Assembly (NCBI GenBank): GCA_023381995.1
Contig: JAMCVD010000121.1
Coordinates: 1 to 34,964 of the forward strand
Length of the DNA stretch: 34,964 nt
Origin: Deltaproteobacteria bacterium
GTDB lineage: Bacteria; JAMCPX01
Direction of reading: 5' to 3'
Shown: piece by piece, positions 15,259 to 19,839 of the stretch
Layout: each line of letters begins with the position of its first letter
How positions within the stretch are numbered: position 1 is the stretch's first letter
Notes under the pieces: model-generated
The model's input: only the letters and a program-made list of their open reading frames with translations
Database searches by the model: none
What the model was told of the DNA's origin: nothing
Translations under genes and position numbers: made by a program

Positions 15259-15284
15259 ACTAATGATTGATGAATGGAGGATGT

Positions 15285-16532
15285 ATGAGTTTCGTAAAAG
15301 GTCTGAGATGCAGGGAGTGTGGAGAGCTTTATCCAAAGCAGGCTCTGCATGTGTGCGAGCTGTGCTTCGGTCCGCTTGAGGTAGTATATGATTACGAAAA
15401 GATAAAGAAATCCATATCCAGAGATGTGATTGCCCAGAGGGGAAAGGGCATGTGGAGGTATAAAGAGCTTTTGCCGATAGATGGAGAGCCGGCGGTTGGT
15501 ATCGATTCCGGCTTCACGCCCCTGGTCAGGGCCCAGAACCTTGCGAAGACGCTCGGCATAAAAGAGCTGTATATAAAGAATGATACCGTGAACCATCCGA
15601 CCTTCTCTTTTAAGGACAGGGTCGTCTCTGTGGCGATCTCGAAGGCGAAGGAGCTCGGATTTGACACGGTGGCGTGTGCATCGACGGGCAACCTCGCGAA
15701 TTCAGTCGCGGCGAATGCAGCGGCGTGCGGATTGAAAAGCTATGTCTTTATCCCGTCCAATCTCGAGCAGGCAAAGGTCGTGAACACCCAGATATACGGT
15801 GCCAATGTCGTGGGTATAAAAGGCAACTACGATGAAGTAAACAGGCTTTGCTCCGAGATAGCGGGCAAGTATCACTGGGCGTTTGTCAATATAAACATAA
15901 GGCCATATTACGCGGAGGGATCGAAGACGCTGGCACTCGAGGTGGCAGAGCAGCTCGGCTGGCACGCACCGCAGAATATCGTCGTGCCGATGGCGAGCGG
16001 ATCGCTTCTGACGAAGGTATACAAAGGGTTCAGGGAGCTGTACGAGCTCGGGCTTCTATCGAGCATGGAGACGAAGATCTATGGCGCCCAGGCGACGGGG
16101 TGTTCCCCTATATCGGCAGCGGTAAAGGAGCGCCAGGAGCTCTTCAAGCCTGTCATACCAAAAACGATAGCAAAGTCCCTTGCCATAGGGAACCCCGCGG
16201 ACGGCTTCTATGCGATAGAGACCATCAATAAGACACATGGCTGGGCAGAGGACGTCTCGGACGACGAGGTCATAGAGGGCATAAAGCTGCTTTCCGAGAC
16301 GGAGGGTATATTTGCCGAGACGGCCGGGGGGGTAACCGTCGGTGTCGCCAAGAAGCTTGTGGAAGAGGGCAGGCTCCCGAGGAATGAGTCCGTCGTATTG
16401 CTGATAACCGGGAACGGGCTGAAGACGCAGGAGGTATTGATCAACAGGATCGATCAACTGATGGTGATACCCGCCAGACTCGATGCATTCGACGAGGTGT
16501 TCAGGGAAAAAGAAAGGGCGAAGTCGAAATAA
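15285..16532 (+). CDS. thrC: Threonine synthase
   Basis: Zinc-ribbon-like N-terminus LRCRECGELYPKQALHVCELCFGPLE; PLP-lysine motif NPTFSFKDR-like (HPTFSFKDRVVSVA); ACASTGNLANS; TEGIFAETAGGVTV. ATG at 15285 preceded by GGAGG. Confidence 0.92.
   Translation: MSFVKGLRCRECGELYPKQALHVCELCFGPLEVVYDYEKIKKSISRDVIAQRGKGMWRYKELLPIDGEPAVGIDSGFTPLVRAQNLAKTLGIKELYIKNDTVNHPTFSFKDRVVSVAISKAKELGFDTVACASTGNLANSVAANAAACGLKSYVFIPSNLEQAKVVNTQIYGANVVGIKGNYDEVNRLCSEIAGKYHWAFVNINIRPYYAEGSKTLALEVAEQLGWHAPQNIVVPMASGSLLTKVYKGFRELYELGLLSSMETKIYGAQATGCSPISAAVKERQELFKPVIPKTIAKSLAIGNPADGFYAIETINKTHGWAEDVSDDEVIEGIKLLSETEGIFAETAGGVTVGVAKKLVEEGRLPRNESVVLLITGNGLKTQEVLINRIDQLMVIPARLDAFDEVFREKERAKSK
16236..16268. repeat. thrC copy of a short tract shared with the JAMM gene
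   Basis: catggctgggcagaggacgtctcggacgacgag; 31/33 identical to 17766-17798, with 26 contiguous identical bases (16243-16268). Confidence 0.95.
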
Positions 16533-16544
16533 GGCCACGGTAGT

Positions 16545-17480
16545 ATGGATGATACCATGAAGCTGATAGATGTCGATAATATCATCAATGGCACCATACT
16601 CGAGCTGATAGGCAATACGCCTCTTTACAGACTGAAGAGGTTCTCTCAGAAGAGTGGGAAGGTAGAGGTATACGCGAAGCTCGAGAAGCACAACCCCGGC
16701 GGGTCCGTAAAAGACAGGCCTGCGCTGCGTATGGTACTTGAAGGCATAAGGACGGGGGATCTGACGGAATCGAAGGTCATACTCGAGTCGACGTCCGGCA
16801 ACACGGGCATTGCCCTTGCAATGATAGGGGCGGTGCTCGGCTACCGCGTAAAGCTCTATGTCCCCAGGAACGCGAGTGAAGAAAGGAAGAAGATAATGAA
16901 CGCGTTCGGTGCCGAGGTCGTATTGACCGACCCCGTGGAGGGCTCGGATGGCGCATACAGGGAGTGCATCATGGAGTACGACAGGCACAGCGACCAATAC
17001 TTCAAGCCCGACCAGTACAACAACCCTGCGAATGTGCGCGCACACTACGAGACGACGGCACCCGAGATCATACGACAGACGCGTGGCAGGCTCACGCATT
17101 TTATCGCGGGCATCGGTACCGGCGGCACGCTTGTGGGTACGGGAAAACGGCTGAAAGAGTACAACCCCGATATCCAGATCATAGGGGTTGAGCCCGATTC
17201 CCCTTTCCACGGCCTTGAGGGCCTGAAGCACATAGAGAGCTCCATAGTGCCGGGTATACTCGACAAGAGCGTCTACGACGAGGTCATACATGTCAATACC
17301 GAGGAGGCGTATAATATCGTCAGGCAGCTCGCGAGGGAGGAAGGCATACTCGTTGGGCAGTCGTCCGGGGCGGCCCTCTGGGCCGCGTTGCAGGTCGCAT
17401 CGGGTGCGGAGGAGGCCGTGATCGTAACGGTGTTCCCGGACGGCGGCTCGAACTATTTCAGTACAAGGCTCTGGGACTGA
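16545..17480 (+). CDS. Cysteine synthase-like PLP enzyme (CysK/CysM family)
   Basis: LIGNTPLYRLKRF, KLEKHNPGGSVKDRPAL, ESTSGNTGIALAMIG, GIGTGGTLVGTGKRLKE, GQSSGAALWAAL, VFPDGGSNYFST. Confidence 0.92.
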   Translation: MDDTMKLIDVDNIINGTILELIGNTPLYRLKRFSQKSGKVEVYAKLEKHNPGGSVKDRPALRMVLEGIRTGDLTESKVILESTSGNTGIALAMIGAVLGYRVKLYVPRNASEERKKIMNAFGAEVVLTDPVEGSDGAYRECIMEYDRHSDQYFKPDQYNNPANVRAHYETTAPEIIRQTRGRLTHFIAGIGTGGTLVGTGKRLKEYNPDIQIIGVEPDSPFHGLEGLKHIESSIVPGILDKSVYDEVIHVNTEEAYNIVRQLAREEGILVGQSSGAALWAALQVASGAEEAVIVTVFPDGGSNYFSTRLWD

Positions 17481-17482
17481 GC

Positions 17483-17890
17483 ATGATAGTAAAGGACGAT
17501 GCCTTGAAGCACATGAGGAGCCACCTCGAGCAGGCGTATCCGCACGAAGGCTGCGGGGTCATGCTCGGGAGCGACGGCGTTATTACGATGGTACACCGCG
17601 GAACGAATATAAGGCAGGACAGACGGGAAGACAGGTTCCTGCTCGATCCGTCCGATATCGTGCATGCGGAAAAGCTCGCACGGCAAAAAAGAGTGGAGAT
17701 CATGGGTTTCTATCATTCACATCCTGATCACCCTGCGCGACCTTCATTGACCGACCGTGAGGACGCATGGGAGGGCAGAGGACGTCTCGGACGACGAGTC
17801 GATAACGGCAGGATGGGAGACATAGGCGTGTTCAGGCTTTCGGAAGATGGCGCCGATTTTGTACAGGAAACGTTTACGATCGAGGATTAA
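17483..17890 (+). CDS. JAMM/MPN+ (Mov34/PAD-1, M67-type) metallopeptidase, with an anomalous internal segment
   Basis: YPHEGCGVMLG and JAMM motif GFYHSHPDHPARPSLTDREDAW. The next residues (EGRGRLGRR) do not look like the usual hydrophobic strand. Confidence 0.85.
   Translation: MIVKDDALKHMRSHLEQAYPHEGCGVMLGSDGVITMVHRGTNIRQDRREDRFLLDPSDIVHAEKLARQKRVEIMGFYHSHPDHPARPSLTDREDAWEGRGRLGRRVDNGRMGDIGVFRLSEDGADFVQETFTIED
17766..17798. repeat. JAMM-gene copy of a short tract shared with thrC (different reading frame)
   Basis: catgggagggcagaggacgtctcggacgacgag; 26 identical contiguous bases (17773-17798) to 16243-16268. Confidence 0.95.
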
Positions 17891-17903
17891 TAAGGAGGTA
17901 ACT

Positions 17904-18434
17904 ATGGCAATAACGGTAAGAATACCGACACCGCTGAGGAAATACACCCAGGGCAGGGATGAGGTATCAGTAGAGGGGGCCAACCTCAGGGAGCTTCTCC
18001 AGAACCTTGAGAAGGACCACAAAGGCATAGGCCAGAGGATCATGGATGACAAGGGGGGCGTACGGCGCTTCGTGAATATCTATCTCAACGACGAGGATGT
18101 CAGGTTCAAAAAAAATCTCGATACCCCGATAAAAGACGGAGATGTGATATCGATAATACCGGCGATAGCCGGAGGTGTGCCGGACAGGAGTGGAAAGGTT
18201 AAAAAAAAAGTGTACCTGACGTACAAAAGGACGTTGCTCAACAAGCCCGTCATATGGGAGGCGTGCAGGAAGTTTGATGTCGTAATAAACATCGGTACCG
18301 CGTCCGTGTCCGGGGACATAGGGCTTGTCGGGGTGGAGCTGGAAGGGCCCCCGGAAGAGATAGAACAGGTAATAAAATGGTTTACGAAAAGGGGCGTAAA
18401 GGTCGAGCCCATAGAACAGACAGTGCTGGAGTAA
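17904..18434 (+). CDS. MoaD/ThiS-like ubiquitin-fold sulfur carrier fused to a C-terminal NIL domain
   Basis: MAITVRIPTPLRKYTQGRDEVSVEGANLRELLQNLE...GDVISIIPAIAGG (MoaD-like ending in GG), then linker VPDRSGKVKKK and NIL-like VYLTYKRTLLNKPVIWEACRKFDVVINIGTASVSGDIGLVGVELEGPPEEIEQVIKWFTKRGVKVEPI. ATG at 17904 preceded by AAGGAGG. Confidence 0.88.
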   Translation: MAITVRIPTPLRKYTQGRDEVSVEGANLRELLQNLEKDHKGIGQRIMDDKGGVRRFVNIYLNDEDVRFKKNLDTPIKDGDVISIIPAIAGGVPDRSGKVKKKVYLTYKRTLLNKPVIWEACRKFDVVINIGTASVSGDIGLVGVELEGPPEEIEQVIKWFTKRGVKVEPIEQTVLE

Positions 18435-18440
18435 GAGGTA

Positions 18441-19238
18441 ATGCTGACGAATTCACAAATAGAGAGATACGCACGGCACATCATACTCGATGGGGTCGGG
18501 GGCAAGGGTCAGGAGAAGCTGCTCAGATCGAAGGTATTGGTGATAGGGGCCGGAGGTCTCGGCTCGCCGATTGCCATGTACCTCGCTGCGAGCGGTATCG
18601 GTAATATAGGTATTGTCGATTTCGATGTCGTGGACGTCTCGAACCTGCAGAGACAGATAGCACACTCTACGGCCGACATAGGGACGCCCAAGACCGACTC
18701 AGCGGAAAGGACCATAAAGGCCATCAATCCCGACGTTGCCGTTCAGAAATTCAGCTTCAAGCTGACATCGGAGAACATCATGGACATAATCAAGGACTAC
18801 GACCTCATCGTCGACGGCACCGATTCCTTCCCTGCCAGATACCTTATAAACGACGCCTGCGTGCTTTCCGGGAAGAGGAATGTATATGGCAGCGTTTTTA
18901 AGTTTGAAGGGCAGGCGACCGTGTTCTCTCCAGGCGAGGGACCGTGCTTCAGGTGCCTCTATCCTGAGCCCCCGCCGCCCGGGATGGTACCGAGCTGTCA
19001 GGAAGCGGGGGTATTCGGCGTACTGCCGGGCCTCATAGGCATGATACAGGCGACCGAGGCGATCAAGATCTTTCTCGGCATCGGGAGGCCGCTCATCGGC
19101 AGGATGCTCGTCTATGATGCACTGCGCATGGAGGTAAGAGAGATGAGGATCCGAAAGGACCCCGCGTGCCCTGTGTGCGGCGAGCACCCTACTGTCACGA
19201 AGCTCATAGACTATGAGCAGTTTTGTGGGGTACGATGA
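18441..19238 (+). CDS. MoeB/ThiF/HesA family E1-like adenylyltransferase
   Basis: RYARHIILDGVGGKGQEKLLRSKVLVIGAGGLGSP; GTDSFPARYLINDAC; CFRCLYPEPPPPGMVPSCQEAGVFGVLPG; CPVCG zinc ligands. Confidence 0.93.
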   Translation: MLTNSQIERYARHIILDGVGGKGQEKLLRSKVLVIGAGGLGSPIAMYLAASGIGNIGIVDFDVVDVSNLQRQIAHSTADIGTPKTDSAERTIKAINPDVAVQKFSFKLTSENIMDIIKDYDLIVDGTDSFPARYLINDACVLSGKRNVYGSVFKFEGQATVFSPGEGPCFRCLYPEPPPPGMVPSCQEAGVFGVLPGLIGMIQATEAIKIFLGIGRPLIGRMLVYDALRMEVREMRIRKDPACPVCGEHPTVTKLIDYEQFCGVR

Positions 19239-19531
19239 GGCTGTGTGTCCTTGTCGCGGTATCGGGGAAGACGATTTTGACCACGCTGCGCCGTCTCTAC
19301 GACGACTGTGGGGGGGACATCGAGTTCTTCCTGTACGGCGACGGCGTCCTGCTTTTGGATGATCAGTCATTCATGGAGCTGTCGAAGCACGTGAAGACTA
19401 CTCTGTGCGGTGTGAGCGGGGAGGAGAGGGGGACAGGGAAGCGTGATGGCGTTGTTTTCGGCAGTCTGTACGATCTTTCCGTCATGGCCGCACGTTCGGA
19501 CAGGCTCGTATCATTTGCCAGAGAGCCATGA
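19235..19531 (+). CDS. DsrE/TusD-like sulfur relay protein
   Basis: MRLCVLVAVSGK...IEFFLYGDGVLLL...TTLCGVSGEERG...VVFGSLYDLSVMAARSDRLVSF resembles TusD/DsrE layout. ATGA overlap with the E1 gene. Confidence 0.6.
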   Translation: MRLCVLVAVSGKTILTTLRRLYDDCGGDIEFFLYGDGVLLLDDQSFMELSKHVKTTLCGVSGEERGTGKRDGVVFGSLYDLSVMAARSDRLVSFAREP

Positions 19532-19839
19532 ATATAACCGTTCTCATAAAAGAGGGCAGCACTGCACGGCTGGTTGATGGCATACGGCTTGCGCTCGGCC
19601 TTACGATCAACCACAAGATATCGCTGCTTATCACGGAGGAAGGCGCCGGCTCCATTTCGGACGCCCTCGCAGACGGTGCCTTCAAAAAGCAATTCCTCGA
19701 GTCGATCGGGCTCATAACCTCGATGTCCGGTATCGTGAGGACAGAGAGGGCCATTGCAGGCGTCGGTCCCATCGAGCTTCTCTCACGGGACGATCTTGCA
19801 AAGCTCGTGCTCGGCTCTGACTCCATAATAGTATTTTGA
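19528..19839 (+). CDS. DsrF/TusC-like protein
   Basis: DGIRLALGLTINHKISLLITEEGAGSISDAL... DsrF/TusC-like layout. ATGA overlap with the preceding gene. Confidence 0.55.
   Translation: MNITVLIKEGSTARLVDGIRLALGLTINHKISLLITEEGAGSISDALADGAFKKQFLESIGLITSMSGIVRTERAIAGVGPIELLSRDDLAKLVLGSDSIIVF

Follow-up and report, generated by a model that had tools for sequence, protein, structure and literature searches.

How can a sulfur carrier work when its Gly-Gly motif lies in the middle of the polypeptide chain, and what does the domain behind that motif contribute? These questions are raised by a locus of a Deltaproteobacteria bacterium, located on a stretch of 34,964 nucleotides that was analysed as a whole and is referred to here as the window. 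Thiocarboxylate chemistry, as known, requires a C-terminal glycine. In the ThiS-NIL fusion encoded at this locus (Table 1), the GG is followed by 85 residues, and the primary product thus has no free C-terminal GG. The sequence-only reading had interpreted the protein as a pro-carrier that is cut after GG, presumably by the adjacent JAMM protein, with the tail as a possible methionine/thiol sensor, targeting module or lock. The genomes used for comparison are MAGs and incomplete (84% completeness for the window genome), and "family" (f1, f12 and others) and "phylum" denote group codes of the genome collection.

Domain layout and distribution of the fusion

The ATG of the fusion ORF is preceded by a good ribosome site, AAGGAGGT. 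The fused architecture was confirmed by a Pfam domain search in which both halves scored above the curated cut-offs, with a ThiS match to residues 5-91 (64.4 bits, cut-off 22.5) and a NIL match to residues 103-168 (42.4 bits, cut-off 24). The carrier half ends in AIAGG, its GG codons lying exactly where the sequence-only reading had placed them. Pfam, PDB matches and the structure model all point to a beta-grasp fold with GG for this half. Its best PDB matches, also recovered by Foldseek, are CysO of M. tuberculosis (3dwg_C) and of Amycolatopsis (4n6e_B), and CysO aligned with it over the full length (E 1.2e-22). The NIL assignment holds by profile as well as by fold: apart from Pfam, the second half matches the C2 domain of MetN in a profile comparison (3dhx, E 2.9e-9) and in Foldseek (3tuz and 3dhx, E 1.5e-4).

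Structure prediction of both halves, which had been proposed as a check, yielded two confident domains (AlphaFold2 of the whole fusion, 88 aligned rows, mean pLDDT 87.5) separated by a disordered junction. The pTM of this model is 0.49, and the relative placement of the ThiS and NIL domains is therefore to be regarded as unfixed. The linker had been given as the eleven residues VPDRSGKVKKK; the stretch VPDRSGKV stood as linker, but KKK opens the first NIL strand. These three lysines are all encoded by AAA and form an A9 run (18201-18209) at the start of the NIL domain, a possible slippage site. Only one other run of at least eight nucleotides is present in the 35 kb, namely A8 at 18108.

Table 1. 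Features of the carrier operon in the window and the evidence for their assignment.
Feature	Position	Strand	Basis
MetM-type threonine-synthase paralog, candidate homocysteine synthase	15267..16532	+	thrC family, 288 bits; clade apart from canonical ThrC
CysM-type cysteine synthase	16545..17480	+	TIGR01138, 388 bits, slightly below cut-off 394.2
JAMM metalloprotease, candidate trimming/releasing enzyme	17483..17890	+	Prok-JAB E 2.5e-20; 2kcq match
ThiS-NIL fusion ORF	17904-18434	+	176 aa, ATG start
Sulfur-carrier half (ThiS/MoaD, CysO/MetO-like), residues 1-91, ends PAIAGG	17904..18176	+	Pfam ThiS E 1.4e-17
Codons of Gly90-Gly91; cut expected behind Gly91	18171..18176	+	AGG in 41/41 fusions
Linker VPDRSGKV, sequence and length drift in relatives	18177..18200	+	pLDDT <50 at residues 89-95
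NIL domain, residues 100-176	18201..18431	+	Pfam NIL E 6.7e-11; MetN C2 profile and fold matches
E1-like (MoeB type) adenylyltransferase, without rhodanese domain	18441..19238	+	ThiF E 2e-85; MoeB-type NCBIfam matches
DsrE-like protein, possible sulfur donor to carrier	19223..19531	+	Pfam DsrE E 2.1e-4, narrowly misses cut-off; position conserved in f1
103-aa ORF, operon end	19528..19839	+	conserved in f1

The uninterrupted fusion was found in six families, namely f1, to which the window belongs, f15, f99, f152, f12 and f29. It is present in eight of the nine f1 genomes, where the seven other copies are 73-87% identical to that of the window; identity is 49-58% in the remaining five families. 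Of the 30 genomes in the phylum that includes G019, 29 matched the fusion, one of them over its last part only. An assembly artefact or a chance read-through could be ruled out, given that the uninterrupted fusion is shared by seven further genomes of the same family and by five other families, with 41 distinct, conserved fusions in all.

A second arrangement, in which the carrier gene has its own stop and a NIL gene follows directly, was observed in 14 genomes of 12 other families (G391, G252, G243, G299, G373, G210, G133, G394, G165, G091, G093, G049, G126 and G038). In five of them both genes share one frame that is interrupted by a single stop. Other relatives carry NIL elsewhere in the carrier neighbourhood, sometimes in two copies; L123, L124, L134, L135 and L136 each have two NIL genes per operon neighbourhood. 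As to a single origin of the fusion, the tree did not decide between one and several events (parsimony 5 changes, AU p 0.163).

Proposed cleavage behind the buried Gly-Gly motif

In the alignment of fusions, AGG is identical in all 41 proteins, whereas identity across the fusions is 0.33 in the linker in comparison to 0.67 in ThiS and 0.63 in NIL. An invariant AGG next to a drifting linker argues for a cut after GG, since the two glycines would be ordinary linker if the chain stayed whole. The carriers of the split homologs end at GG or one to eight residues past it, and the extra tails of unfused relatives consist of a few unrelated residues (K, R, KF, TH, SC, KRA, SRGIRCLT). In other relatives the same GG is buried in front of an E1, a rhodanese-E1 or an FeS_assembly_P domain. 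Examples are a ThiS-GG fused to FeS_assembly_P (PF01883; L081:1186-1782, G089) and carriers fused directly ahead of their own E1, or of rhodanese-E1, with the GG kept at the junction (L138:3685-4767, L134:3372-4454, L135:2758-3840, L028:346-1782 and L102:1501-2970). In a carrier at L146:7021-7365, 24 residues come after AIAGG, and this tail closes with AVAGG. In G000, G001, G003 and G004 no second ThiS-family protein was detected; the fusion alone represents the family in these four genomes and should therefore be functional.

The JAMM protein next to the fusion, on which the sequence-only reading relied, is present and has an intact motif according to profile and motif check: the glutamate of YPHEGCG is followed by HSHPDHPARPSLTD, in agreement with E ... 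H[ST]H-x7-S-x2-D. JAMM matches above the cut-off were obtained in 20 of 21 fusion genomes, and in G327 (84% complete) the match was sub-threshold only. The gene is linked to the fusion in f1, f15 and most of f12, lies 3 kb away in G036, and is located elsewhere in f99 and f152. Its presence in relation to tail length (31 of 33 with a tail, 4 of 5 without) offers no usable contrast. A precedent for the removal of a domain-length tail by JAMM exists in MoaD-MoaE, where Deinococcus DRJAMM leaves a C-terminal glycine (PMC8832034). Taken together, the invariant GG, the split homologs, the JAMM genes and the MoaD-MoaE precedent provide good, if indirect, support for the proposed pro-carrier. Most likely, the fusion must be cut before it can work, and without such processing the name pro-carrier would not apply; that the cut is made by the JAMM protein of the operon is what we infer from these sequences.

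The pathway served by the operon

The fusion belongs to a tight run of genes comprising ThrC-like, CysM, JAMM, fusion, E1, DsrE-like and ORF103 (15267-19839). Their order is conserved across f1 as far as the contigs extend, with minor variation at the operon end, and the 103-aa ORF had no family match in Pfam or NCBIfam. By automatic annotation the first gene would be called a threonine synthase, but the gene proves to be a paralog of MetM type. The window genome has its canonical thrC on a separate contig (G000:C79), and the operon protein is only 34% identical to the ThrC encoded there. It falls into a single clade (support 99) separate from canonical ThrC and made up of 38 copies from operons of many lineages, whose PLP-lysine motif is mostly PT[LFWHY]SFKDRVV in place of PTGSFKDRGM. 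The operon thus contains one feature expected of MetM, a ThrC-like paralog that is distinct from canonical ThrC and shares an operon with a carrier.

PMC12172450, citing Hasebe et al. 2024, describes Streptomyces MetM as a ThrC-like homocysteine synthase that uses O-phosphohomoserine, and S. albulus metM as having an upstream SAM riboswitch and a related carrier gene, metO. The same source reports MetM homologs in cyanobacteria, the M. aeruginosa copy being located beside a carrier and without a SAM riboswitch, which is consequently not strictly defining for MetM (PMC12172450). Among the loci compared, the Streptomyces-like L144 (72% GC, 9.2 Mb genome) shows the order known from S. albulus metM/metO, with SAM riboswitch, ThrC-like and carrier, its ThrC-like protein being 52.6% identical to that of the window. 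In 11 related loci, five of them f12 fusion loci, the MetM-type gene is directly preceded by a SAM riboswitch; none was found upstream of the window operon, even among sub-threshold matches. Methionine enzymes of PF01053 were absent from eight of the nine fusion genomes tested, including all five of f1. Across families, the commonest neighbour of the carrier is the MetM-type gene, often without CysM or JAMM.

These data suggest that the pathway serves mainly methionine synthesis. Homocysteine could instead come from the DUF39 (HcyA) route. That the same carrier would serve cysteine as well is suggested by the CysM gene of the operon, by five f1 genomes in which no serine acetyltransferase scored above the cysE cut-off, and by the fusion being the only ThiS-family protein detected. 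As CysM shares the operon, cysteine may be an equal or even the main product, which counts against the methionine reading.

The NIL domain and the proposed pro-carrier

No NIL domain other than that of the fusion was found in the window genome. Six columns are invariant among 25 carrier-linked NIL domains, one of them being Asn30 (Asn129 of the fusion, codon 18288-18290). It aligns with Asn295 of E. coli MetN, a residue needed for methionine binding; the 6cvl chain has Ala at MetN residue 295. The asparagine lies in the motif that gives the NIL family its name, and its conservation therefore supports a working site but is not proof of a methionine ligand. The suggestion of a methionine sensor has thus gained pathway and residue evidence, binding itself being a prediction. 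Given that the neighbouring gene is a MetM-type homocysteine synthase candidate, a point absent from the sequence-only reading, a methionine-type domain becomes intelligible here, and a predicted methionine sensor fits a methionine operon.

We therefore favour, with a probability of about 0.6, a MetO/CysO-type pro-carrier that would be trimmed by JAMM and whose NIL half would sense methionine. From the domains and their conservation, the operon, the MetM-type clade, the SAM riboswitches of relatives, the absence of PF01053 and the invariant asparagine we infer the cut and the protease that makes it, the substrates used, the ligand and the regulation. The product would be a pro-protein in which JAMM cuts after Gly91 to expose the GG end. 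The E1 would adenylate this end, a DsrE/TusA-type donor would give the sulfur, and the PLP enzymes would accept it from the carrier. The carrier would serve a thiocarboxylate route from O-phosphohomoserine to homocysteine together with the MetM-type synthase, and probably one to cysteine with CysM. JAMM may also detach the amino acid that is bound to the carrier, in the manner of Mec+ acting on CysO-Cys. The NIL half would act like the stand-alone NIL products of sister lineages, most likely as a regulatory partner that binds methionine or a related thiol amino acid and is made one-to-one with the carrier. A further step, in which methionine or homocysteine bound by NIL before the cut would set the rate at which JAMM exposes the GG, is tentative and rather improbable.

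It is quite possible, though in our view somewhat doubtful, that NIL is carried along passively, the fusion having arisen by loss of the stop codon between neighbouring genes, with a JAMM that trims any tail and a NIL that acts only after release and has no role in carrier maturation. The great variety of tails past GG, from 0-8 residues to entire domains, is in line with this, as are the adjacent carrier and NIL genes in 14 genomes, five of them one stop away from a fusion. Retention of the fusion in eight of nine f1 genomes and in nearly all 30 of another phylum speaks against a mere passenger, but the idea survives this, since a fusion kept throughout two groups is thereby only known to be at least not harmful. 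An unlikely alternative leaves cleavage unchanged and assigns the pathway to CysO-type cysteine synthesis, with CysM acting on O-phosphoserine, JAMM acting as Mec+, the MetM-like gene as a bystander and NIL sensing cysteine or nothing. CysO is the best solved match of the carrier half, CysM and JAMM genes lie adjacent, and five f1 genomes lack a clear cysE; however, the prevalence of the MetM-type gene beside carriers that often have neither CysM nor JAMM, its upstream SAM riboswitches in relatives and the missing PF01053 enzymes point to methionine.

Cleavage itself would be dispensable if sulfur could be transferred without a free GG by a fusion that stays uncut, with NIL serving as a tether or in dimerisation. 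The distant JAMM genes of f99 and f152 would agree with this very improbable explanation, but the known chemistry, the invariant AGG beside a drifting linker and the GG kept before tails as unlike as E1, rhodanese-E1 and FeS_assembly_P do not. Moreover, M. tuberculosis MoaX is inactive when uncut, its activity depending on a cut after Gly82 by a protease that was not identified there (PMC4326299). Two products might also arise from one gene without proteolysis, by slippage at the A9 run or by internal initiation, giving a carrier without NIL or NIL alone. Most f1 relatives have the run, even though the lysine codons of the operon are mostly AAG (58) rather than AAA (17), and either frameshift soon reaches a stop in relatives. 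We nevertheless give this hardly any credence, as residues would still trail the GG and A9 is not strictly kept in other families.

Buried-GG carriers, JAMM trimming and the MetM route are already known. The CysO system of M. tuberculosis (CysM, Mec+ JAMM, MoeZ) has the same kinds of genes, CysM, JAMM, carrier and E1, but CysO ends at GG, whereas the window carrier continues into NIL, its E1 is without rhodanese and a MetM-type gene is added. MetM/MetO, as outlined in the source cited above, likewise combines a ThrC-like paralog and a carrier in one operon, with a SAM riboswitch shared by relatives of the window; the window operon differs in having no riboswitch and a carrier fused to NIL, and its MetM-type activity is a candidate one. 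In MoaD-MoaE fusions (MoaX; DR2607 cut by the JAMM DR0402) the GG of the carrier is likewise buried, with a whole C-terminal domain behind it, but this domain is MoaE and the pathway is that of the molybdenum cofactor. The JAMM-trimmed pro-carriers of the HcyS/HcyD and QbsE/QbsD systems have tails of a few residues instead of a whole domain. MetN shares the N295 position with the fusion, its NIL sitting on an ABC transporter ATPase. The Thermus MoaD-related protein 1v8c likewise consists of a ThiS half with GG and a C-terminal domain; in the 1v8c-like protein of L030 the tail matches DUF1952 and not NIL.

In our literature search, which covered papers available without subscription, no published ThiS-NIL fusion and no NIL genes in such an operon were found. 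What is new here is the pathway context, in which the operon "threonine synthase" is a distinct paralog of MetM type, MetM being the recently reported homocysteine synthase that works with the carrier MetO. The MetM route would thereby be connected, at this locus, with a pro-carrier, the protease that likely processes it and a sensor domain of the methionine type; the locus also suggests how bacteria without the usual methionine enzymes obtain homocysteine. Split and fused forms together connect stand-alone NIL genes to the MetM/carrier pathway. Methionine-gated maturation, if true, would place a sulfur-carrier pathway under post-translational control by its end product.
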